18,419 nt of DNA from an uncultured Aquincola sp. (GTDB lineage: Bacteria; Pseudomonadota; Gammaproteobacteria; Burkholderiales; Burkholderiaceae), in contig CAKZXL010000585.1 in NCBI GenBank assembly GCA_937883885.1, positions 1 to 18,419 of the forward strand. Reading direction: 5' to 3'. The notes below the pieces were generated by a model. That model ran no database searches. It had not been told where the DNA came from and saw only the letters and a list, made by a program, of their open reading frames with translations. The translations under genes were made by a program, and so were the position numbers. Position 1 is the first letter of the stretch, and the number at the start of each line of letters is the position of its first letter. Shown piece after piece: positions 6,817 through 15,751 of this stretch.

Positions 6817-7455
6817 TCAGTCCTGACGTCGACGGCGAGCCAGGAACAGCATGGCGCCCAGGCCACCGGCCATCAGCGCATAGGTGCTGGGCTCGGGCAC
6901 CGGGGCCAGCGTCAGGTTGTCGAAGGCGACGGTGCCTTGCGTGTCCGCGAACTGGATCGATCGGGCCAGGCCACCGAACACCAGGCTGGTCTTTTCCCAG
7001 TTGCAGAAGGCCGTGTCGCTGCAGCCGGCGGTGGCATTGGCGTTCAGGCTCATCGAGCCCAGCAGCGTGCCGGTGCCGTTGAGGCCCGAGTACACGTTGA
7101 CCGTGTTGTTCAGCTGCGCAGCAGAGGCATAGAAGAACGACAGGTAGCCCGAGAAGCCGGCGGCCACGTTGACGAAGGCGTCGCCGCCCTGCACGAAGGC
7201 CACGGTGCCGGCGCTGGGTGCGTTCGAGAAATACGGGCCCAGCACGTCGTTGGTCAGCGACAGCATCGGCGAGGTGAAGGACACGCCGACGTTGCTGCCC
7301 ATGTTGCCGGCACCGCTGGTGCCGCCGTTGTAGAACTCGCCCACTTCGGTGCCGTAGTCGCCCACGCCCTCGAAGGTCAGGGTGATGGGGCTGGCAGCGA
7401 AAGCCGGCGCAGCGGCGGCGGTGGCCAGCGCGGCGATGAGCGCGAGATGCTTCAT
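6817..7455 (-). CDS. PEP-CTERM sorting-domain surface protein
   Basis: A 212-residue secreted protein. The signal peptide spans 1-20 (cleavage after AFA). The body is rich in Gly, Ser, Asn and Thr and looks beta-stranded. A possible disulfide pair is Cys145 and Cys151. The C-terminus is a full PEP-CTERM sorting signal: VPEPS at 186-190, a membrane segment to about 206, then RRRR at 207-210. Proteins of this type are processed by an exosortase (EpsH/XrtA family) and associate with exopolysaccharide in Gram-negative bacteria. No exosortase is in this window. The start is supported by a strong GAGGAGGT box a few bases upstream. It is a single-gene unit with its own terminator, and upstream lies a possible PhoB-type promoter. 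Confidence 0.93.
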   Translation of the reverse strand: MKHLALIAALATAAAAPAFAASPITLTFEGVGDYGTEVGEFYNGGTSGAGNMGSNVGVSFTSPMLSLTNDVLGPYFSNAPSAGTVAFVQGGDAFVNVAAGFSGYLSFFYASAAQLNNTVNVYSGLNGTGTLLGSMSLNANATAGCSDTAFCNWEKTSLVFGGLARSIQFADTQGTVAFDNLTLAPVPEPSTYALMAGGLGAMLFLARRRRQD

Positions 7456-7498: not shown

Positions 7499-7532
7499 AG
7501 TCTAGGGACGGTTTTTGACAGCTTGAAGGCGG
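7499..7532 (-). promoter_or_regulatory. Possible Pho-box promoter of the PEP-CTERM gene
   Basis: On the minus strand a good half-site CTGTCAA (7521-7515) is followed after exactly 10 bases by TAGACT (7504-7499) as a -10 element. Eleven bases upstream the partner half-site position holds CCGCCTT (7532-7526), which matches CTGTCAY only in part. The spacing equals that of the stronger boxes at 10891-10945 and 11449-11466. The predicted leader would be about 37 bases. Because one half-site is poor I hold this as a candidate only. Confidence 0.4.
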
Positions 7533-7562: not shown

Positions 7563-10193
7563 TCAATGGGCGGCCAGCGTGCGGTCGAGCTCCAGCTGCA
7601 GCGCGCGCGCGGCCACCGGGTCGCTGGCCGCCAAGGCAGTGGCCATGCGCCGCAGCGGCTCGGCGGCGGGCTGGAAGTCGGGGCTGGTGCGCAGCACCGC
7701 CAGCAGCGGTTCGCGCAGCTGGGCCAGCATGTGGCGCACGTCGGCCGAAGGCTTGACGTCGCGCCCGGCCTGCAGGAAGCGCTGGCGCGCCGCGCCGTAG
7801 GCCGCCAGCCGCGCCGCATCGGCCGGCGCGGCCTGCGCACCCAGCAGCTCGGCCGGCTGCAGCCGCACCTGCTGCAGCAGGCTCAGCAGCCGGTCGCGCG
7901 GCAATGAATCGGCCACGTAGGTGATGCGCGGCGCGGCATAGGCCACCACCGGATGGTCGTCGGTGTTGAGCGGCGCGCCCGCCGACCACTGCGCCAGCGC
8001 CGCCGGGCCGGCGATGAAGCTGCCCAGCACCGCCCACGCATCGGGCAGGCCGAAGACGGCCGGCCGCACCGGCAGCGCCGCGCTCTCCACCCGGGCCTGC
8101 ACCGCTGCCAGTGACCAGGGCGATGGCGACTGCTGCGCCAGCAGGCCCACCACCGGCGTTTCCAGGCTGTTGGTGGCCAGCACCATCAGCGCCTGCGGGT
8201 ACACCGCCTGGAAGCTGCGCACGATGCTGCGCAGCGTGGCCAGGTCCAGCTGGTGCAGCGGCAGCCACTGGCAGAACAAGCCGCCTGGGGCCAGCCTCGC
8301 CTGCACCGCGCGGAAATGTTCCACCGTGTACAGCGCCCCCGAACCACTGCGCGCCGGGTGGAAGTTGTCGGCCACGATCAGGTCGTAGCGCTGGTCGCTG
8401 GTGCGCACATAGCGGCGGGCGTCGGCCGCCAGGGGGTGCAGGCGCGGCTGGGGCTGGCCTTCGAACACCCGCTCGCGGAAGTCGGCCGCTGCTTCGATGA
8501 CCTCGGGCAGCAGCTCCACCGCATCCACCTGCAGCGCCGCGTCCTGCGCGGCGGTGGTGGCGGTGAGCCCGGTGCCCAGCCCCAGGAACAGCGCACGCTG
8601 CGGCTGCGGGTGCAACAGCAGCGGCAGCAGTGCCTGGCGGGCATCGGCCGCCAGCGTGGCGCTGCTGCCTTCCTGCTGCCGGTTGTTGATGCGCAGCCGG
8701 GCCACGCCTTGCGCGTCTTCCACCACGCTGACGGCGGCCATCGGCCCCTCGGTGTAGCGCACGATGCGGCCGCCTTCCGGCAGCTCCACGAAGCGCAGCG
8801 GCGGTGTGGCCAGGGCCAGCAGCAGGCCGGCACACACCACCGCCCAGGCCGGGGCGCGGGCCCAGGCACCGGCGCTGCACAGTGCCAGGTAGCCGGCGGC
8901 CACCAGCAGCAGCGCCGCCTTGGCGCCCAGGGCCGGCACCGCCAGCACGCCGAAGGCCAATGGCGCCGCCGCTGCGCCCAGCGTGTTCCAGCCCAGGCAG
9001 CGGCCCCAGCCGATGCCGGCTTGCGCGGCCTGGCTGCACAGGTGGCTGAACAAGGAGCCCATCACCAGCGTGGGCGGCAAAAAGGCCACCAGCGCCAGCA
9101 GCGCCTCGGCCGCCAGCGGCGCGGCCAGGCTGGCCCCAGCCAGCGGCAGCAAGGTGTCGACGGCGGCGGCCTTCAAGGCCTCGGCCCCATACAGCGCCGC
9201 AGTGCCCGCCAGGCAGGCCGCGGCCAGTGCGGCCAGCAGACGGTCGCGCACGCTGGCGTCGCCGGCCGCCTGCGGCGTGGCGCGGCGGCGCCAGCGGGCG
9301 TATAGCGCCGCGCCGATGGCGCTGCCCACCAGGTACACCGCCAGCAGCATGGCAAAGGTGTAGACGGTGTTTTCCGTCACCTGGCTGAGCACGCGCACCA
9401 CCAGCACTTCGTAGCCGATGCCCAGGGCGCCGGTGGCGGCCAGCAAGGCGGGCCAGCGGACGCTGCCATGCGCCGAACTGCTTGCTGAAGCAGCACTGAC
9501 GGGCGCGGGTTTGTGCACGCGGTCGAACACCGACACCGCCAGCACCGCGCACAACAGGTTGAGCGCCGCGCAGGCCGCGGCGGTGCGGGCCAGGCCCCAG
9601 GTGGGCACCGCCCAGAAGGCCACGGCCAGCACGCCCAGCACCGCGCCGGCGGTGTTGCCCGCGTACAGCAGCGCCAGGCGGCGGCCGGCATCGTCGGTGG
9701 CGGCCCCATCGCCGCGCAGCGGGGCCAGCACCCGCTCCATTGCGGGCAGCGTGGCGCCCATGGCGGCGGTGGCCGGCAGCAGCAGCACCAAGCTGCCGAT
9801 GAAGGCCACGCCCCATTGCCAGGCCACGCCGGGCTGCGGCCCGGTGAGTGCGAGCATCAGCTCGGCCGCGGGCGCCATCAGCAGCGCCAGCACCAGGCTC
9901 CAGCCGCCGATGACCAGTTCGCAGCCGGCGTACCAGCGCGCAGGCCGCGCACTGCGGCCGATGCGCGGCGACAGCAGCAGCGCCCCCAGGCCCAGGCCGC
10001 CGAAAAAGGCCGCCACCACGGCCAGCACCGCCGCCGTCTCATGCCCCAGCCACAAGGAGGCCTGCTGCGTCCAGGCGATCTGGTAGCCCAGCGCCGAAGC
10101 GCCAGAGGCCAGCATCAAGGCCAGCGCGGCACGCCAGCCGCTGCGCCCGGCCAGGCGGGCGGCCGGTGCGGGCAAGGTGGCGGCAGCTTGCAT
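7563..10193 (-). CDS. Membrane protein fused to a spermidine-synthase-like domain
   Basis: An 876-residue two-part protein. Residues about 20-465 form a polytopic membrane domain of roughly a dozen hydrophobic segments, of the kind annotated as 'fused MFS/spermidine synthase'. Residues about 475-770 form a soluble Rossmann-type domain. It has the nucleotide motif LFLGLGTG (535-542), acidic Glu560 after strand 2, ADARRY (589-594), DLIVADNFHP (604-613) and the family motif PLNTDDHPVVAY (741-752). Asp609 occupies the position of the catalytic Asp of aminopropyltransferases. The C-terminal 100 residues are helical and unassigned. True polyamine synthesis is not proven, since many fused homologues have unknown acceptors. 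The ATG at 10193 starts 13 bases after the oxygenase stop; the longer frame to 10310 would overlap that gene. It is co-transcribed with the oxygenase. Confidence 0.85.
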   Translation of the reverse strand: MQAAATLPAPAARLAGRSGWRAALALMLASGASALGYQIAWTQQASLWLGHETAAVLAVVAAFFGGLGLGALLLSPRIGRSARPARWYAGCELVIGGWSLVLALLMAPAAELMLALTGPQPGVAWQWGVAFIGSLVLLLPATAAMGATLPAMERVLAPLRGDGAATDDAGRRLALLYAGNTAGAVLGVLAVAFWAVPTWGLARTAAACAALNLLCAVLAVSVFDRVHKPAPVSAASASSSAHGSVRWPALLAATGALGIGYEVLVVRVLSQVTENTVYTFAMLLAVYLVGSAIGAALYARWRRRATPQAAGDASVRDRLLAALAAACLAGTAALYGAEALKAAAVDTLLPLAGASLAAPLAAEALLALVAFLPPTLVMGSLFSHLCSQAAQAGIGWGRCLGWNTLGAAAAPLAFGVLAVPALGAKAALLLVAAGYLALCSAGAWARAPAWAVVCAGLLLALATPPLRFVELPEGGRIVRYTEGPMAAVSVVEDAQGVARLRINNRQQEGSSATLAADARQALLPLLLHPQPQRALFLGLGTGLTATTAAQDAALQVDAVELLPEVIEAAADFRERVFEGQPQPRLHPLAADARRYVRTSDQRYDLIVADNFHPARSGSGALYTVEHFRAVQARLAPGGLFCQWLPLHQLDLATLRSIVRSFQAVYPQALMVLATNSLETPVVGLLAQQSPSPWSLAAVQARVESAALPVRPAVFGLPDAWAVLGSFIAGPAALAQWSAGAPLNTDDHPVVAYAAPRITYVADSLPRDRLLSLLQQVRLQPAELLGAQAAPADAARLAAYGAARQRFLQAGRDVKPSADVRHMLAQLREPLLAVLRTSPDFQPAAEPLRRMATALAASDPVAARALQLELDRTLAAH

Positions 10194-10206
10194 GGACAAG
10201 TTCAGG

Positions 10207-10830
10207 CTATCCGGTAAAGCCGATGCGGTAGCCCCAGGAATCCAGCCGCGTGGGGATGGCATTGAAGGCCAGGGTGATGCGCTGCTCCCCGGGGTTGGGG
10301 GGCACGGCATGCATCAGGTAGCTGGGAAACAGCACCAGGTCGCCGGGTTCGGGCTGGGGGCTGATCCACTTGTCGGCGTTGTAGGGGCCGGTGCGGCTGC
10401 CTTCATGGTCGTTCTTGAACGAGAAGTCGGTGCCGCCCGGCGCCTTCATGAACACGGTGCGCGCATCGGGGTGGGTGGGCGTCAGGTACACCACGCCCGA
10501 GATGAAGCTGTTGGCATGGTTGTGCATGGCCTGGCGGCCGCCCTGCGCCAGGACGTTGACCCACATCTCCTTGAGCGACCAGCCCAGCCGCTCACCGAAC
10601 AGCAGCGCGCCGAAGTCGGCCAGCCGGGGCGTGACGCGCTCGGCCACCGCCACCAGCAGCGGGCTGTCGCTGGGCTTGAGCATGCGGGTGTGCGACAGCT
10701 GCGCCGAGCTGTTGTTCTCCACCGCGGCCCGGGCCGAAAAATGCTCGACCAGGGCTTTGACCAGCGGCGCGTCCAGCGCGCCGGGCAGCCGCATGAAGGG
10801 CGTGGCAAAGAGTCCGATCACCTCGTCCAT
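10207..10830 (-). CDS. Putative 2OG-Fe(II) oxygenase (TIGR02466/PF13759-like)
   Basis: A 207-residue cytosolic protein resembling the putative 2-oxoglutarate/iron oxygenases of family TIGR02466. Visible features: MHNHANSFISGVVYL (102-116), where His103 or His105 is the likely first iron ligand; PGDLVLFPSYLMHAVPP (162-178) with His174 as the distal iron ligand; and Arg184 in EQRITLAFN (182-190), the expected contact for the 2-oxoglutarate carboxylate. The carboxylate iron ligand is not obvious: Asn107 occupies the HxD/E slot. I chose ATG 10830 (MDEVIGLF); the longer frame to 10923 covers the promoter. AGGA lies about 10 bases upstream. It is the first gene of the operon with the membrane-bound spermidine-synthase-like protein and has a strong Pho-box promoter. 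The substrate is unknown. Confidence 0.82.
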   Translation of the reverse strand: MDEVIGLFATPFMRLPGALDAPLVKALVEHFSARAAVENNSSAQLSHTRMLKPSDSPLLVAVAERVTPRLADFGALLFGERLGWSLKEMWVNVLAQGGRQAMHNHANSFISGVVYLTPTHPDARTVFMKAPGGTDFSFKNDHEGSRTGPYNADKWISPQPEPGDLVLFPSYLMHAVPPNPGEQRITLAFNAIPTRLDSWGYRIGFTG

Positions 10831-10874
10831 CGAGCGGGGTCCTGCGGCAGGGCATGGGTTGGGGGTGGCCGCGG

Positions 10875-10908
10875 ACTCTATGGCGCTTCGAAGACAGGCG
10901 CGTGACAG
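10875..10908 (-). promoter_or_regulatory. Pho-box promoter driving the oxygenase operon
   Basis: Read on the minus strand: CTGTCAC (10908-10902), four bases, CTGTCTT (10897-10891), ten bases, then TAGAGT (10880-10875). The half-sites lie at an 11-base period, and the gap from box to -10 is the same 10 bases as in E. coli phoA, where the box replaces the -35. The predicted start of transcription is near 10868, giving a leader of about 38 bases. No competing TTGACA-like -35 is visible. Confidence 0.75.
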
Positions 10909-10916
10909 CGCGCCGG

Positions 10917-10961
10917 CTGTCATCGCGGCGTCATTGGGCGGTCACCAAGGCCGCCTAGCGT
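10917..10961 (+). promoter_or_regulatory. Triple Pho-box promoter driving the PCu(A)C-like gene
   Basis: Three half-sites at an exact 11-base period: CTGTCAT (10917-10923), GCGTCAT (10928-10934) and CGGTCAC (10939-10945). Ten bases later comes TAGCGT (10956-10961) as the -10. All three keep the GTCA core. The predicted transcript starts near 10968, leaving a short leader that just contains the GAGGAG ribosome-binding site (10972-10977). The box faces away from the minus-strand box at 10891-10908, only eight bases from it, so PhoB could cover both. Confidence 0.78.
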
Positions 10962-10983
10962 GCCGTGCCTCGAGGAGAAGTTC

Positions 10984-11442
10984 ATGAACCACCCCATCCA
11001 CCGCCGCCGGCTGCTGTACAGCGGCCTGCAGGCCGGCCTGTCGCTGGGCCTTGCCGGCCTGCTGCCGCAAGCCCGCGCCTGCGAATACTTCAGCCCCAAC
11101 CTGCGCATCACCCACCCCTACACCCGGGCCACGCAGCCGGGCGAGACCAGCATCGCGGTGACGATGAAGTTCGACGAGGTGACCCGCGCCGACCGCCTGA
11201 TCGGCGTGCAGACACCGGTGGCCGAAGGCGCCGAGATCGGCGGCGAGCTGGCCCGCCCCAGCGTGGACTTCGTGATCCCCGAAGGCGAAGAGACCTGGCT
11301 GCGCGAAGACCGCAGCTTTCTGCGCCTGGTGGGGCTGAAGCACCCGCTGGAGGTGGCCCGCACCTACCCGATGACCCTGGTCTTCGAGCACGGCGGCCCG
11401 GTGCCGGCCACGCTCAACATCGATTACGTGCGCTTCGGCTGA
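10984..11442 (+). CDS. Exported PCu(A)C-fold protein without copper ligands
   Basis: A 152-residue protein. A Tat-like signal peptide is visible: HRRRLLYSG, a hydrophobic core and ARA at 30-32. The mature part follows the PCu(A)C copper-chaperone plan (PF04314): ITHPYTRATQPGETSIAVTM (42-61), a strand-rich middle and LRLVGLKHPLEVARTYPMTL (113-132). The family binds Cu(I) with the pattern H(M)X10MX21HXM. Here those sites are replaced: EIGGEL where the first His is expected, and SFLRL where HxM usually stands. Copper binding of the usual kind therefore looks unlikely. The ATG at 10984 is chosen for its GAGGAG box. It is the first gene after the triple Pho box, 96 bases ahead of the PHP metallohydrolase. 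Confidence 0.75.
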   Translation: MNHPIHRRRLLYSGLQAGLSLGLAGLLPQARACEYFSPNLRITHPYTRATQPGETSIAVTMKFDEVTRADRLIGVQTPVAEGAEIGGELARPSVDFVIPEGEETWLREDRSFLRLVGLKHPLEVARTYPMTLVFEHGGPVPATLNIDYVRFG

Positions 11443-11448
11443 CCACGC

Positions 11449-11482
11449 GCGTCACGCCGTGGTCATGGCGCCTGCCTAGCAT
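11449..11482 (+). promoter_or_regulatory. Pho-box promoter upstream of the PHP metallohydrolase gene
   Basis: GCGTCAC (11449-11455), four bases, TGGTCAT (11460-11466), ten bases, then TAGCAT (11477-11482). Spacing and -10 type repeat those of the box at 10917-10961. It lies directly after the PCu(A)C-like stop codon, so the PHP gene probably has its own phosphate-controlled promoter as well as read-through. The predicted leader is about 50 bases and contains the GAGGAGA ribosome-binding site at 11525-11531. Confidence 0.68.
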
Positions 11483-11538: not shown

Positions 11539-13773
11539 ATGAAACCCGTCTTCCGCCCCGCGCCCATCGCGCTGGCCGCCATCGCCGCCCTCGGCACCAC
11601 GGTGCTGGTGGCCGCACCGCAGGTCGCCAGCGCTGCCAAGCCGGCCGGCACCTACGTCACCGGCGACTTCCACAACCACACCACCTGCTCGGATGGCTCC
11701 ATCTCGATGCAGAAGCTGGTCAAGAAGGTCACCGACAAGACCGACACGCCCTGGGGCCTGGACTGGTTCGTCCAGGCCGGCCACGGCGGCAGCGGCAACC
11801 GCAACTGCACGCTGGTGGAAGACGCCAGCCTGGCCACCCCGGCCTACCCGCTGAACTACGACAGCAACGGCAACCTGCAAGGCCCGACCACCACCTGGCA
11901 AAGCAGCAACCCCGCAGTGCAGCCCAAGGGCCGCGTCTCGGGCAGCGCCCCCGGCCAGGTGATGTGGCGCTGGCAGTCGCTGCAGGAGTTCCAGTACCCG
12001 GTGATGGAGTACCTGGCCGCCTACAAGAACAAGCCGATGTTCGTCGGCATCGAGACCGTGGCCCCCGGGCATGAACACGTCTCGGCCTCGGTGATCACCG
12101 GCCAGATGCCGGCATCGCTGGACAAGGCCACGCTGCCCACCACCAAGGGCTACACGCCGCTGGGCAACGCCACCGCGCTGGCGCAGTGGGAATACTGCTT
12201 CGACCGCAACGACACCGACACCAGCCGCGGCAACTCGGTGCTGGGCGGCGATGTGGGCAACAACTGGAACTGCGCCGTGCCGGGCAGCCTGAACAGCGCC
12301 AGCTCCGACTGGAGCGCCCAGGCCCAGAAGCTGGTGCCGGCCAGCGGCAGCGGCAACGGCGACCGCGGCCACGCCAAGACGCTGGAAGCGCTGAAGTGGA
12401 TGGTGGCCAACCACCCGAACGGCAGCTACTACGTGCCCGCCCACCTGGAGCGCGCCGGCCCGTTCAACCCGGACGGCAACAACGGCTTCAACATCGAGCA
12501 CCTGCGCAACTTCAACAACACCGCGCCGCGCGTGGCCTTCGGCTTCGAGACGCAGCCCGGCCACGGCGCCTCGGACAACCGCGGCGAATACTCGCCCCTG
12601 CGCAACAACATCAACGGCGTGCTGACCGACTCGGTCGGTGGCACCACCTGGGGCGGCACCGGCGTGTACGGCTCGCAGGTGGGCGGCGTGTGGGACGCGC
12701 TGCTGGGTGAAGGCCGCAACTGGTGGTTCTTCGCCAGCTCCGACTGGCACAACCGCGGCAGCTTCGGTCCGGACGACCGCCGCTCGACGCAGGACTTCTA
12801 CCCCGGCGAGTACCAGCGCGACTACGTGATGGTGCGCAACGGCACCGACCCCAAGCTGCGCCCGCAAGCCATCGTCGACGGCCTGCGCAGCGGCAACAGC
12901 TTTGCCGCCAGCGGCCAGCTGATCGACCGCCTGGCCTTCGTGGCCTGCGCCAGCTATCCCGGCATCGGTGCGCGCACCAACGCCGCGGTGGAGAACATCG
13001 CGGTGAACGCCGCGCTGAACAACACCGACGTGGACGTGGCTGGCTGCGCCACCATGGGTGAGAAGCTGGTGGTGCGCCCGGGCGCCGAGGTCATCGTGTC
13101 CATCGTGGCGCGCGACCCGGCCGGCAAGAACTACTCGCCGTACAGCTTCAACAACCCGTCGCTGGCCCAGGTGGGCATCCAGCAGCCGCTGAACATGCCG
13201 GTGCTGGACCACATCGACGTGGTGCGCGGCATGGTCACCGGCTACAAGCAGCCGGGCACGGCCGGCTACGCCGGCCAGTGGCCGAACGACTGGCTGACCA
13301 ACCCGGTGATGGCCAACGTGCCGGCCGCGGCCAAGAACACCAGCGCGGCGGTCATCAAGACCTTCAACGGCGCCACCTGGACCGCGGTGGCCGGCAATGC
13401 GGAATACAAGAAGATGACCTTCCGCATCCCGGCGGTGCAGGCTTCGCAGTACGTGCGTCTGCGCGGCAGCAACCTGCCCGCGGCCGTGCCCTACGAGACC
13501 GACGCCAACGGCAACCCGCTGGCCGACATCCACACCAACGCCAGCAACCTGGCGAACCTGCGCATTCCGTGCAACGTGGCCGGCACCAACCTGCCGTCGA
13601 ACAACGTCGTCTACACCGGCGACACCATCGACGGCTGCCCGGCCCACCTGCCCACCGTCAACGGCCAGAAGTACGTGGCCTTCGACGTGGCGGCCTGGTC
13701 GGACCTGTGGTTCTACAGCAACCCGATCTACGTGGAAGTGCAAGGCGCCACCGCCGTGGCCGGCGTGAAGTAA
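11539..13773 (+). CDS. Secreted PHP-type metallohydrolase (putative phosphoesterase)
   Basis: A 744-residue exported protein with a signal peptide at 1-32 (cleavage at ASA). PHP-type metal ligands appear in order: GDFHNHTTCSDG (42-53) with His45, His47 and Asp52; His82 in QAGHGGS; Glu172 in FVGIETV; His178/His180 in PGHEHV; His302 in PAHLER; and SDWH (401-404) with Asp402 and His404. PHP domains use three metal ions to split phosphoester bonds. The segment RPQAIVDGLRSGNSFAASGQ (441-460) is also typical of the family. The C-terminal 280 residues look beta-rich and are unassigned. Eight Cys (50, 90, 220, 245, 470, 503, 678, 700) fall in four close pairs, suiting disulfides outside the cytoplasm. 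The ATG at 11539 is set by GAGGAGA. The substrate is unknown. Confidence 0.8.
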   Translation: MKPVFRPAPIALAAIAALGTTVLVAAPQVASAAKPAGTYVTGDFHNHTTCSDGSISMQKLVKKVTDKTDTPWGLDWFVQAGHGGSGNRNCTLVEDASLATPAYPLNYDSNGNLQGPTTTWQSSNPAVQPKGRVSGSAPGQVMWRWQSLQEFQYPVMEYLAAYKNKPMFVGIETVAPGHEHVSASVITGQMPASLDKATLPTTKGYTPLGNATALAQWEYCFDRNDTDTSRGNSVLGGDVGNNWNCAVPGSLNSASSDWSAQAQKLVPASGSGNGDRGHAKTLEALKWMVANHPNGSYYVPAHLERAGPFNPDGNNGFNIEHLRNFNNTAPRVAFGFETQPGHGASDNRGEYSPLRNNINGVLTDSVGGTTWGGTGVYGSQVGGVWDALLGEGRNWWFFASSDWHNRGSFGPDDRRSTQDFYPGEYQRDYVMVRNGTDPKLRPQAIVDGLRSGNSFAASGQLIDRLAFVACASYPGIGARTNAAVENIAVNAALNNTDVDVAGCATMGEKLVVRPGAEVIVSIVARDPAGKNYSPYSFNNPSLAQVGIQQPLNMPVLDHIDVVRGMVTGYKQPGTAGYAGQWPNDWLTNPVMANVPAAAKNTSAAVIKTFNGATWTAVAGNAEYKKMTFRIPAVQASQYVRLRGSNLPAAVPYETDANGNPLADIHTNASNLANLRIPCNVAGTNLPSNNVVYTGDTIDGCPAHLPTVNGQKYVAFDVAAWSDLWFYSNPIYVEVQGATAVAGVK

Positions 13774-13864: not shown

Positions 13865-13907
13865 TGCCCTATTGAGGGCCCACCGACTGCCTGATGCCGC
13901 CATCGAC

Positions 13908-14777
13908 ATGACCACTGCCGCCCGCCCTCCCGTGCCCACCCGCACCCAGCCCGAAGCCGCGCCACGCATGCCCGGCGCCCTGTCGCGCTGGCTGCGCGAG
14001 CCGCTGCTGCACTTCGTGCTCATCGGTGCCGCGCTGTTCGCCGTCGACCACTGGCTGGTGTCGCAGGCCGACGATCCGCGCACCATCGTCATCACCCGCG
14101 AGGTGGACGATGAAGCCCGCGGCCTGTTCAAGGCCTCACGCGGGCGCGAGCCCAACGAGGCCGAGCTGAAGGCGCTGCGCCAGGCCTGGCTGGACAACGA
14201 GGTGCTGTACCGCGAAGGCCTGGCGATGCAGGTGGACCGCGGCGACAAGGCCATGCGCGAGCGCGTGATCTTCAAGGCCCTGAGCGTGGTGGAAGCCGAC
14301 GTCAAGCAGCCGCCCTTCGACGAACAGACGCTCAAGGACTACTTCGAGGCCCACCGTGCCAAGTACGACGAGCCGGGCCGCTACGACTTCCAGGAAGCCG
14401 TGCTCACCGACACCAGCGAAGCCGCGGCCCGCGCCTTTGCCGATGCCTTGAACGCCGGCACCCCCGGCAACACCGAAGCCGGCCTGCGCGTGTTCAAGGG
14501 CCGGCCGCATGCCAACCTGGTGGACACCTACGGGCCCGAGTTTGCCAAGCTGCTGGAAGCAGGCCCGGTGGGCAGCTGGCGCGCCCTGCCCACCCGCGAC
14601 GGCTGGCGCGTGATGCGCCTGGACGCCACCACCGCCGCCAAGCCCGCCGACTTCGCACTGCTGCACGGCGTGGTGCTGCAGGACTGGACCGACCAGGTGA
14701 TGGCCGAGCGGCGCACCGCCGCCGTGCGGGCGCTGGGCAAGAAGTACACCGTCAAGCTCGAAGCGGACGCGAAATGA
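13908..14777 (+). CDS. Membrane-anchored PpiC-type peptidyl-prolyl isomerase
   Basis: A 289-residue protein with one N-terminal membrane anchor (EPLLHFVLIGAALFAVDHWL, 31-50) and a periplasmic part. That part has a helical SurA-like stalk (about 65-150, with the NEAELKALRQAWLDNEVLYREG segment) and a parvulin-type rotamase domain of the PF13145 kind (about 135-245). It should assist folding of exported proteins. The gene lies between a large disulfide-containing secreted enzyme and a TonB receptor, either of which could be a client. The start is uncertain: ATG 13908 has no clear ribosome-binding site, and ATG 13968 (MPGALSRW) would still keep the anchor. It ends in an ATGA overlap with the HupE-like gene, so the two are translationally linked. 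Confidence 0.83.
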   Translation: MTTAARPPVPTRTQPEAAPRMPGALSRWLREPLLHFVLIGAALFAVDHWLVSQADDPRTIVITREVDDEARGLFKASRGREPNEAELKALRQAWLDNEVLYREGLAMQVDRGDKAMRERVIFKALSVVEADVKQPPFDEQTLKDYFEAHRAKYDEPGRYDFQEAVLTDTSEAAARAFADALNAGTPGNTEAGLRVFKGRPHANLVDTYGPEFAKLLEAGPVGSWRALPTRDGWRVMRLDATTAAKPADFALLHGVVLQDWTDQVMAERRTAAVRALGKKYTVKLEADAK

Positions 14778-15751
14778 ACAAGCTGCCGCGCCTGTGGCGC
14801 CCGCTGCTGCCGGCCTTGATGGCCTGGCTGGCCTTGCTGGCCGGGCTGCTGCCCCACACCGCCCACGGCCATGAGATGACCATGGCCGAGATGGAGCTGC
14901 GCGAAACCGCCAAGGGCGAGTTCCTGTGGAACTGGACCGCCCGCGAACGCGGCAACAACGACGACCTCAAGCCCGTGTGGCCGCGCAGCTGCACGCCCGA
15001 CGGCAACATGCTGCGCTGCGGCCCCGGCGGCATGCAGGGCACGCTGGCCATCGACGGCGTGGGCAAGCGCTATTCGGCCGCCATCGTCAAGGTGGTGTGG
15101 CTCGACGGGCAAAGCCGCGTCTACACGCTGACGGCCAGCCAGCCCGAGGTGCAGCTGTACGGCGCGGCCGACGACCCGCGCGGCGTGGGCGAGATCGCCT
15201 CGGCCTACCTGGTGCTGGGTGTGGAGCACATCCTCAGCGGCTTCGACCACCTGATGTTCGTCATCAGCCTGCTGTTCCTGGTGGGCTTCAACAAGCGGCT
15301 GGTGGCCACCATCACCGCCTTCACCTTCGCCCACAGCCTGACGCTGGCCAGCAGCGCGATGGGCTGGCTGACGCTGCGCCCGCCGCCGGTGGAAGCCACC
15401 ATCGCGCTGTCCATCCTGCTGGTGGCCGGCGAGGCGCTGCACCACCGGCAGACGCTGTCGCGCCGCTGGCCGGCGCTGGTGGCTTTCCTGTTCGGCCTGG
15501 TTCACGGGCTGGGCTTTGCCGGCGCGCTCAAGCAGATCGGCCTGCCCGACAACCACCTGCTGGTGGCCCTGCTCACCTTCAACGTGGGCGTGGAAGCCGG
15601 CCAGCTGCTGGTGGTGGGCCTGGCCTTCGTGGTGTGGCGCGCGCTGCACCGCTTTGCCGCCTTCCGCCAGGCGCGCACGCCGGCGCTGTACGGCATCGGC
15701 GGCGTGGCGGCCTACTGGGCCATCGGCCGCATCGTCAGCATCCTGGCATAA
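14774..15751 (+). CDS. HupE/UreJ-like membrane protein
   Basis: A 325-residue protein. The N-terminus has a signal peptide (about 1-32) and a soluble periplasmic domain to about 140 with a Cys pair (73, 82). The C-terminal half holds about six membrane helices of the HupE_UreJ_2 type. It has the signature GVEHILSGFDHLMF (149-162), His187 in FTFAHSLTL, Glu220 with His223-His224, GLVHGLGFAG (242-250) and Glu274 in FNVGVEAGQ. HupE/UreJ proteins are linked to nickel uptake. For this longer subfamily with a periplasmic domain the metal, or even transport itself, has not been shown by anything visible here. The gene starts inside the isomerase stop and is followed after 3 bases by the His-rich gene. 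This makes a compact operon. Confidence 0.86.
   Translation: MNKLPRLWRPLLPALMAWLALLAGLLPHTAHGHEMTMAEMELRETAKGEFLWNWTARERGNNDDLKPVWPRSCTPDGNMLRCGPGGMQGTLAIDGVGKRYSAAIVKVVWLDGQSRVYTLTASQPEVQLYGAADDPRGVGEIASAYLVLGVEHILSGFDHLMFVISLLFLVGFNKRLVATITAFTFAHSLTLASSAMGWLTLRPPPVEATIALSILLVAGEALHHRQTLSRRWPALVAFLFGLVHGLGFAGALKQIGLPDNHLLVALLTFNVGVEAGQLLVVGLAFVVWRALHRFAAFRQARTPALYGIGGVAAYWAIGRIVSILA

Follow-up and report, generated by a model that had tools for sequence, protein, structure and literature searches.

Which regulator acts in the 153-nt intergenic region between a 2OG-Fe(II) oxygenase gene and a divergently oriented gene for a PCu(A)C-like protein, and does it act in both directions? The gene pair lies in an 18,419-nucleotide stretch of DNA from an uncultured Aquincola sp., which was analysed as a whole and is referred to here as the window. 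A preliminary description of this DNA had proposed back-to-back Pho boxes through which PhoB would activate both directions under phosphate starvation. In our view two sigma-70 promoters that point away from each other and both depend on PhoB are the best explanation of the region, and we place the probability of this reading at about 0.88. When phosphate runs short, each set of 11-base direct repeats would be occupied by PhoB~P, standing in for a -35 element, and RNA polymerase would be recruited to a TAGAGT hexamer for transcription of the oxygenase gene and a spermidine-synthase-like gene, and to a TAGCGT hexamer for transcription of the PCu(A)C-like gene. At a PHP-type gene, a further transcript may start from a third box (11449-11482).

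Structure and conservation of the two boxes

Pho box 1, on the oxygenase side, occupies 10891..10908 of the minus strand and consists of the half-sites CTGTCAC (10902-10908) and CTGTCTT (10891-10897). Pho box 2, on the PCu(A)C side, occupies 10917..10945 of the plus strand and contains three half-sites, CTGTCAT (10917-10923), GCGTCAT (10928-10934) and CGGTCAC (10939-10945). The half-sites of each box recur with a period of 11 bases, and the last of them is followed after 10 bases by a -10-like hexamer, TAGAGT at 10875..10880 on the minus strand and TAGCGT at 10956..10961 on the plus strand. All coordinates reported earlier for the five GTC half-sites, two on the minus and three on the plus strand, were confirmed, together with the exact 11-base period on both strands and the 10-base gap to each hexamer. 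At 17-bp spacing, the only spacing covered, a -35-like hexamer is absent from both promoters (ATTGGG and ACGCGC stand there), and on both sides the box itself takes the -35 place. From this architecture we infer that phosphate starvation would switch on transcription to either side; the binding of PhoB and the phosphate signal are likewise predictions, drawn from sequence, while the sequence and spacing of the elements, their conservation and their match to pstS promoters are direct observations.

The closest sequences available for comparison were the genome G001, which has 50% of sampled 31-letter words in common with the window, and, among named loci, L001 from Aquincola tertiaricarbonis, whose PHP-type protein is 87% identical. 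In a three-way comparison of the window with G001 and L001, identity is 20/20 bases for the GTCN cores of the five half-sites and 11/12 for the -10 hexamers, as against 23/64 for the remainder of 10870-10965 (cores versus remainder, Fisher P 9e-8). In six cases (window, G001, L001, L020, L051 and L066) the oxygenase and PCu(A)C genes are immediate, divergent neighbours. The expectation that the half-sites persist where both genes are kept held for the plus box in all six and for the minus box in five, including L066, where the gap to the -10 is 11 bases; it failed in L020, which has lost the minus box though the gene pair is kept.

A wider comparison drew on the best 80 of 146 named loci with a PHP-type gene. 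Together with the window these gave 81 regions, of which 61 could be tested for half-site pairs against shuffles at P<=0.05; the other 20 were left out, because at 60-900 nt from the first gene of the plus strand they have no oxygenase, PEP-CTERM or spermidine-synthase-like start in minus orientation. The plus-side box was detected in 48/61 divergent regions (13 missed the threshold) and the minus-side box in 46/61 (15 missed it), although the loci are related, so that these counts are not independent events, and gene starts in the loci were extrapolated from tblastn. By lead gene, the minus-side box was found before 15/22 oxygenase genes, 30/38 PEP-CTERM genes and the single spermidine-synthase-like gene (1/1). 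To tie the minus box to the oxygenase alone would therefore be too narrow, as in many relatives it is a PEP-CTERM gene that this box leads.

Two matrices were used to score promoters by gene. The pstS matrix was learned by an EM search, de novo, from the upstream regions of 34 pstS genes in related genomes (36 loci above the family cut-off minus the lower-scoring L093 and L094; 15 further pstS matches above the cut-off had no locus and so are not in the set), and in its motif TA..gT (TAnnnT) comes after a pair of GTCA repeats with an 11-base period. A separate EM on 77 non-redundant PHP upstream regions returned the same module. At P<=0.05, the pstS matrix gave sense/antisense matches of 33/13 in 34 pstS regions, 56/15 in 81 PHP regions (25/81 PHP promoters were missed), 16/3 in 79 PPIase regions, 30/24 in 58 PEP-CTERM regions, 22/23 in 44 PCu(A)C regions and 1/15 in 74 HupE regions. 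The opposite box accounts, at least in part, for the antisense matches upstream of PEP-CTERM and PCu(A)C genes. What EM recovered upstream of the PCu(A)C genes was the minus box, read as its reverse complement, rather than the plus box. For plus-oriented oxygenase genes the result was 5/25 of 38 and for spermidine-synthase-like genes 38/5 of 73. These matches look like false positives in what appears to be conserved coding sequence, so that the pstS matrix must be regarded as unspecific in coding DNA, and a box before the spermidine-synthase-like gene was discounted on this ground. When EM was given as much as 300 nt before the oxygenase gene, it likewise settled on apparent coding sequence, probably because the gene is plus-oriented behind others in 38/73 tested loci.

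Minus-oriented oxygenase genes were matched in sense in only 6/35 cases by the pstS matrix (antisense 15/35) and in 8/35 by the PHP matrix, and this result is a test against our reading. Both matrices are gapless, and in many of these 35 loci a PEP-CTERM gene lies between or the gap is 11 bases. The result is in line with the best-surviving alternative, in which PhoB drives transcription to one side only, the remaining box being a relic or a site that PhoB occupies without transcription. The missing minus box of L020 and the frequent position of this box before a PEP-CTERM gene instead of the oxygenase point the same way, as do the PhoB sites of E. coli, many of which, mostly intragenic ones, are reported to be inert in transcription (PMC10294691). 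Against this stand the cores and -10 hexamers kept on both sides in the nearest relatives and the recovery of the plus box in 48 and of the minus box in 46 of the 61 testable divergent regions, and we regard a one-sided promoter as improbable.

The regulator and the role of chance

A strict pattern, GTCAY-N6-GTCAY-N10-TANNNT, was searched in related genomes with the reversed pattern as control. It matched 105 times in 41 genomes, versus 3 times for the control: 33 versus 1 in a first set of 11 genomes and 72 versus 2 in 30 further genomes. Among the 105, 27 precede the PHP or PCu(A)C gene of the cluster (25 elsewhere and 2 in G001, where an earlier, over-strict genome pattern had returned 0 matches). 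Within the 80 loci (1.02 Mb), 38/39 strict matches stand directly before a PHP (35) or PCu(A)C (3) gene, with 0 for the reversed control. In the first 11 genomes the pattern occurs at pstS in seven and at phoB in one (G008), and a PhoB above the curated cut-off is encoded in 11/11. Only 17/34 pstS regions carry it, which shows how soft the pstS matrix is.

Ten further genes downstream of strict matches were compared with Pfam or NCBIfam models. Three are divergent from pstS, namely a Ppx/GppA phosphatase (L105, in G009) and a Fasciclin protein (L101, in G005), each behind its own strict match, and a gene without a match in NCBIfam, the only collection used for it (L121, in G006), whose product resembles L101 by eye. 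The others, all behind a strict match, encode a PPK2 (L113), a GDPD phosphodiesterase (L103:382-1449), an Exo_endo_phos protein (L098:1564-2502), a phosphocholine-specific phospholipase C above cut-off (L111), a Phosphoesterase-family protein (L127), a histidine-phosphatase-family protein just above cut-off (L119) and a choice-of-anchor protein (L102). The genes at L102, L119 and L127 look like further members of the Pho regulon. The L098 and L103 products both end in a C-terminal PEP-CTERM motif and are perhaps surface-anchored enzymes of phosphorus scavenging.

PhoB is much the likeliest predicted binder, because the same module stands at pstS, phoB, and polyphosphate and phosphoester genes of the same genome group. 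Another regulator of the OmpR family with similar 11-base repeats, for example a metal-responsive one, could in principle bind in its stead: sites of this family often show such a period, PhoB-like regulators are numerous in the group (67-119 matches per genome in 11 genomes), and the cluster includes a relative of copper chaperones and a HupE gene. We consider this quite unlikely in view of the company that the module keeps in these genomes. A copper regulator in particular makes a weak candidate, as the PCu(A)C-like proteins are without the usual copper ligands.

Scores within the window agree with assignment to PhoB. With a matrix for a half-site pair, written from the Pho consensus, no site of the 18-kb window scores above these two, and the independent pstS matrix likewise puts them in the top two places, at 16.8 and 15.9 bits. 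The PHP-derived matrix placed box 3, which belongs to its own training regions, at the top, followed by the plus site and then the minus site. Shuffling of the intergenic region reached either pstS-matrix score in 0/5000 trials. Among shuffled whole windows, a 17.9-bit match arose in 1/20 and a match of at least 15.9 bits in 0/60 further ones; on the other side stands one 15.3-bit match of the reversed pstS matrix in the window. That the boxes are chance GTCA words in a GC-rich spacer is hardly credible, as the preliminary description had also judged, for although the half-sites are short and an equally strong site did appear in one of the 20 shuffled windows, a chance origin is contradicted by the intergenic shuffles, the base-by-base conservation of the footprint, the recurrence of the boxes across relatives in the divergent-region test and the strict matches of the 80 loci.

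The gene cluster and its further boxes

On the minus strand, the oxygenase gene (10207..10830; PF13759, TIGR02466), whose solved relatives 3bvc and 2rg4 are named uncharacterised, is followed by genes for a membrane-type spermidine-synthase-like protein (7563..10199; MFS_SpdSyn model above cut-off) and a PEP-CTERM protein (6817..7455). The sorting motif of the latter scores above cut-off with both PF07589 (30.2 vs 20.7 bits) and TIGR02595 (27.8 vs 16 bits), and tblastn found relatives of the gene in 57/80 loci.

On the plus strand, the PCu(A)C-like protein (10984..11442) matches PF04314 at 47.2 bits against a cut-off of 29.4. The usual copper ligands of PCu(A)C proteins are His and Met residues arranged in HxM pairs. 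In 12 aligned sequences (the window and 11 relatives) the first HxM pair is absent, and the second reads xxR in 12/12, with His left in 3/12. With copper ligands lost and CE and RL residues invariant, these proteins may have another role.

The PHP-type metallohydrolase (11539..13773, plus strand) has relatives named DUF3604 or PHP family. It matches the CehA/McbA model NF038032 at 42 bits, below the 80-bit cut-off, and has no Pfam match at E<=0.001. H45, H47, D52, D402 and H404 are invariant in 31 sequences and form HxH...D and DxH motifs, which we take to be PHP metal-ligand motifs; the assignment to PHP is made on the sub-cut-off model match and these motifs. A sequence search of the PDB gave no match, and a structural model of modest quality (pLDDT 64.6) gave no PDB match at E<=0.001 in a fold search. 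Of 7993 scored candidates, at least 2552 are relatives at E<=1e-10, and where the 120 that were listed carry a name it is hypothetical, DUF3604 or PHP family. Further along the plus strand lie genes for a PpiC-type peptidyl-prolyl isomerase (Rotamase_2; 13872..14777, start codon uncertain) and a HupE/UreJ-type membrane protein (14774..15751), and beyond them a gene for a TonB-dependent receptor that runs off the window. N-termini read by eye suggest that several of the cluster proteins are exported.

Pho box 3 (11449..11482, plus strand) contains GCGTCAC and TGGTCAT followed after 10 bases by TAGCAT, and ends 56 nt before the PHP-type gene. With the window included, the strict pattern was present upstream of PHP genes in sense in 35/81 regions and on the other strand in 0/81. 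The distance from the -10 to the extrapolated PHP start was 36-302 nt in 34/35 strict-match loci; in L030 it was -2, and the start there is doubtful. A probable Pho box 4 (7499..7532, minus strand), with TAGACT 10 bases on, precedes the PEP-CTERM gene and is the third-best site of the pstS matrix in the window at 15.3 bits. Of its two half-sites, L001 keeps one well, and the other is weak there. A PEP-CTERM gene placed elsewhere may carry a box of its own, as in L008 and, with the PHP matrix only, in L003.

The PPIase gene was examined in the 220 nt before its first aligned residue. A Pho-box-like pair was found there in 13/78 loci (L002, L009, L023, L029, L030, L032, L034, L046, L048, L059, L060, L065 and L072) and in 0/78 on the opposite strand, often reading GTCGTC..TGTCTTG with a TAGCAT-like -10; the same interval of the window has no such box. 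The boxes at PHP, PEP-CTERM and PPIase genes mark a regulon unit that extends beyond a single gene pair. The third box, the probable fourth box and the cluster itself are additions to the preliminary description. We regard the cluster (oxygenase, spermidine-synthase-like, PEP-CTERM, PCu(A)C-like, PHP-type, PPIase and HupE genes) as a probable unit of the Pho regulon.

From its predicted regulation and gene content, our guess is that the cluster most likely serves phosphorus scavenging, and the PHP-type protein is perhaps, again by a guess from gene content, an exported phosphoesterase. Put together, these elements allow a tentative proposal, which we hold to be possible though rather less than even in its chances: Beta- and Gammaproteobacteria might possess a phosphorus-scavenging system, so far undescribed and under PhoB control, with an exported PHP-type phosphoesterase assisted by its own PPIase. 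A 2OG oxygenase, a degenerate PCu(A)C-like protein, a HupE-type membrane protein and a PEP-CTERM protein sorted to the surface would be its other parts, and back-to-back Pho boxes, which tend to remain with their units as gene order changes, would switch on all of them together. If this is true, the system would belong to a broader programme of phosphate starvation in which PEP-CTERM proteins are put on the cell surface, as the GDPD of L103 and the Exo_endo_phos protein of L098 may also illustrate.

Comparison with known systems

Neither the cluster nor its phosphate control was mentioned in the titles, abstract openings and passages searched, a scope that lay outside most subscription journals, and the same literature yielded no transcriptome under phosphate limitation in which the cluster is named; a Variovorax phosphate study reports RNA data (PMC12226003; BioProject PRJNA1198483, no-P against Pi). 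Phosphate starvation can now be offered as a testable signal for a widespread, conserved cluster without a described function, and an experimenter gains a condition to use.

Some PEP-CTERM proteins are also suggested to be under phosphate control, unlike pepA of Aquincola tertiaricarbonis. This PEP-CTERM gene, from an organism probably of the window's own genus, is reported to be RpoN-dependent and to function in floc formation (PMC9850573; PhoB has 0 occurrences in the main text). The PEP-CTERM protein of the window reaches 30.7 bits with the PepA model, below the 80-bit cut-off, and its gene has a probable Pho box and a sigma-70-like -10, whereas pepA is driven by RpoN.

The pstS promoters of related betaproteobacteria have the same repeat, spacing and TAnnnT -10 as the promoters described here, and 6/34 pstS regions likewise have a second box facing the other way, there as a strict match. 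The genes served are different, pstS acting in phosphate transport and the present cluster consisting of other genes.

The likeness to the E. coli phoA promoter drawn in the preliminary description is correct, as phoA of strain K-12 has TTGTCAC, 10 bases and then TATAGT. Two 7-base half-sites 11 apart, with 10 bases to the -10, are common to both systems. In phoA, however, one box serves one gene, whereas two boxes stand back to back here, and the three half-sites of the plus side and the GC-rich spacers also differ from phoA. The switch is known from textbooks; its predicted targets are new.
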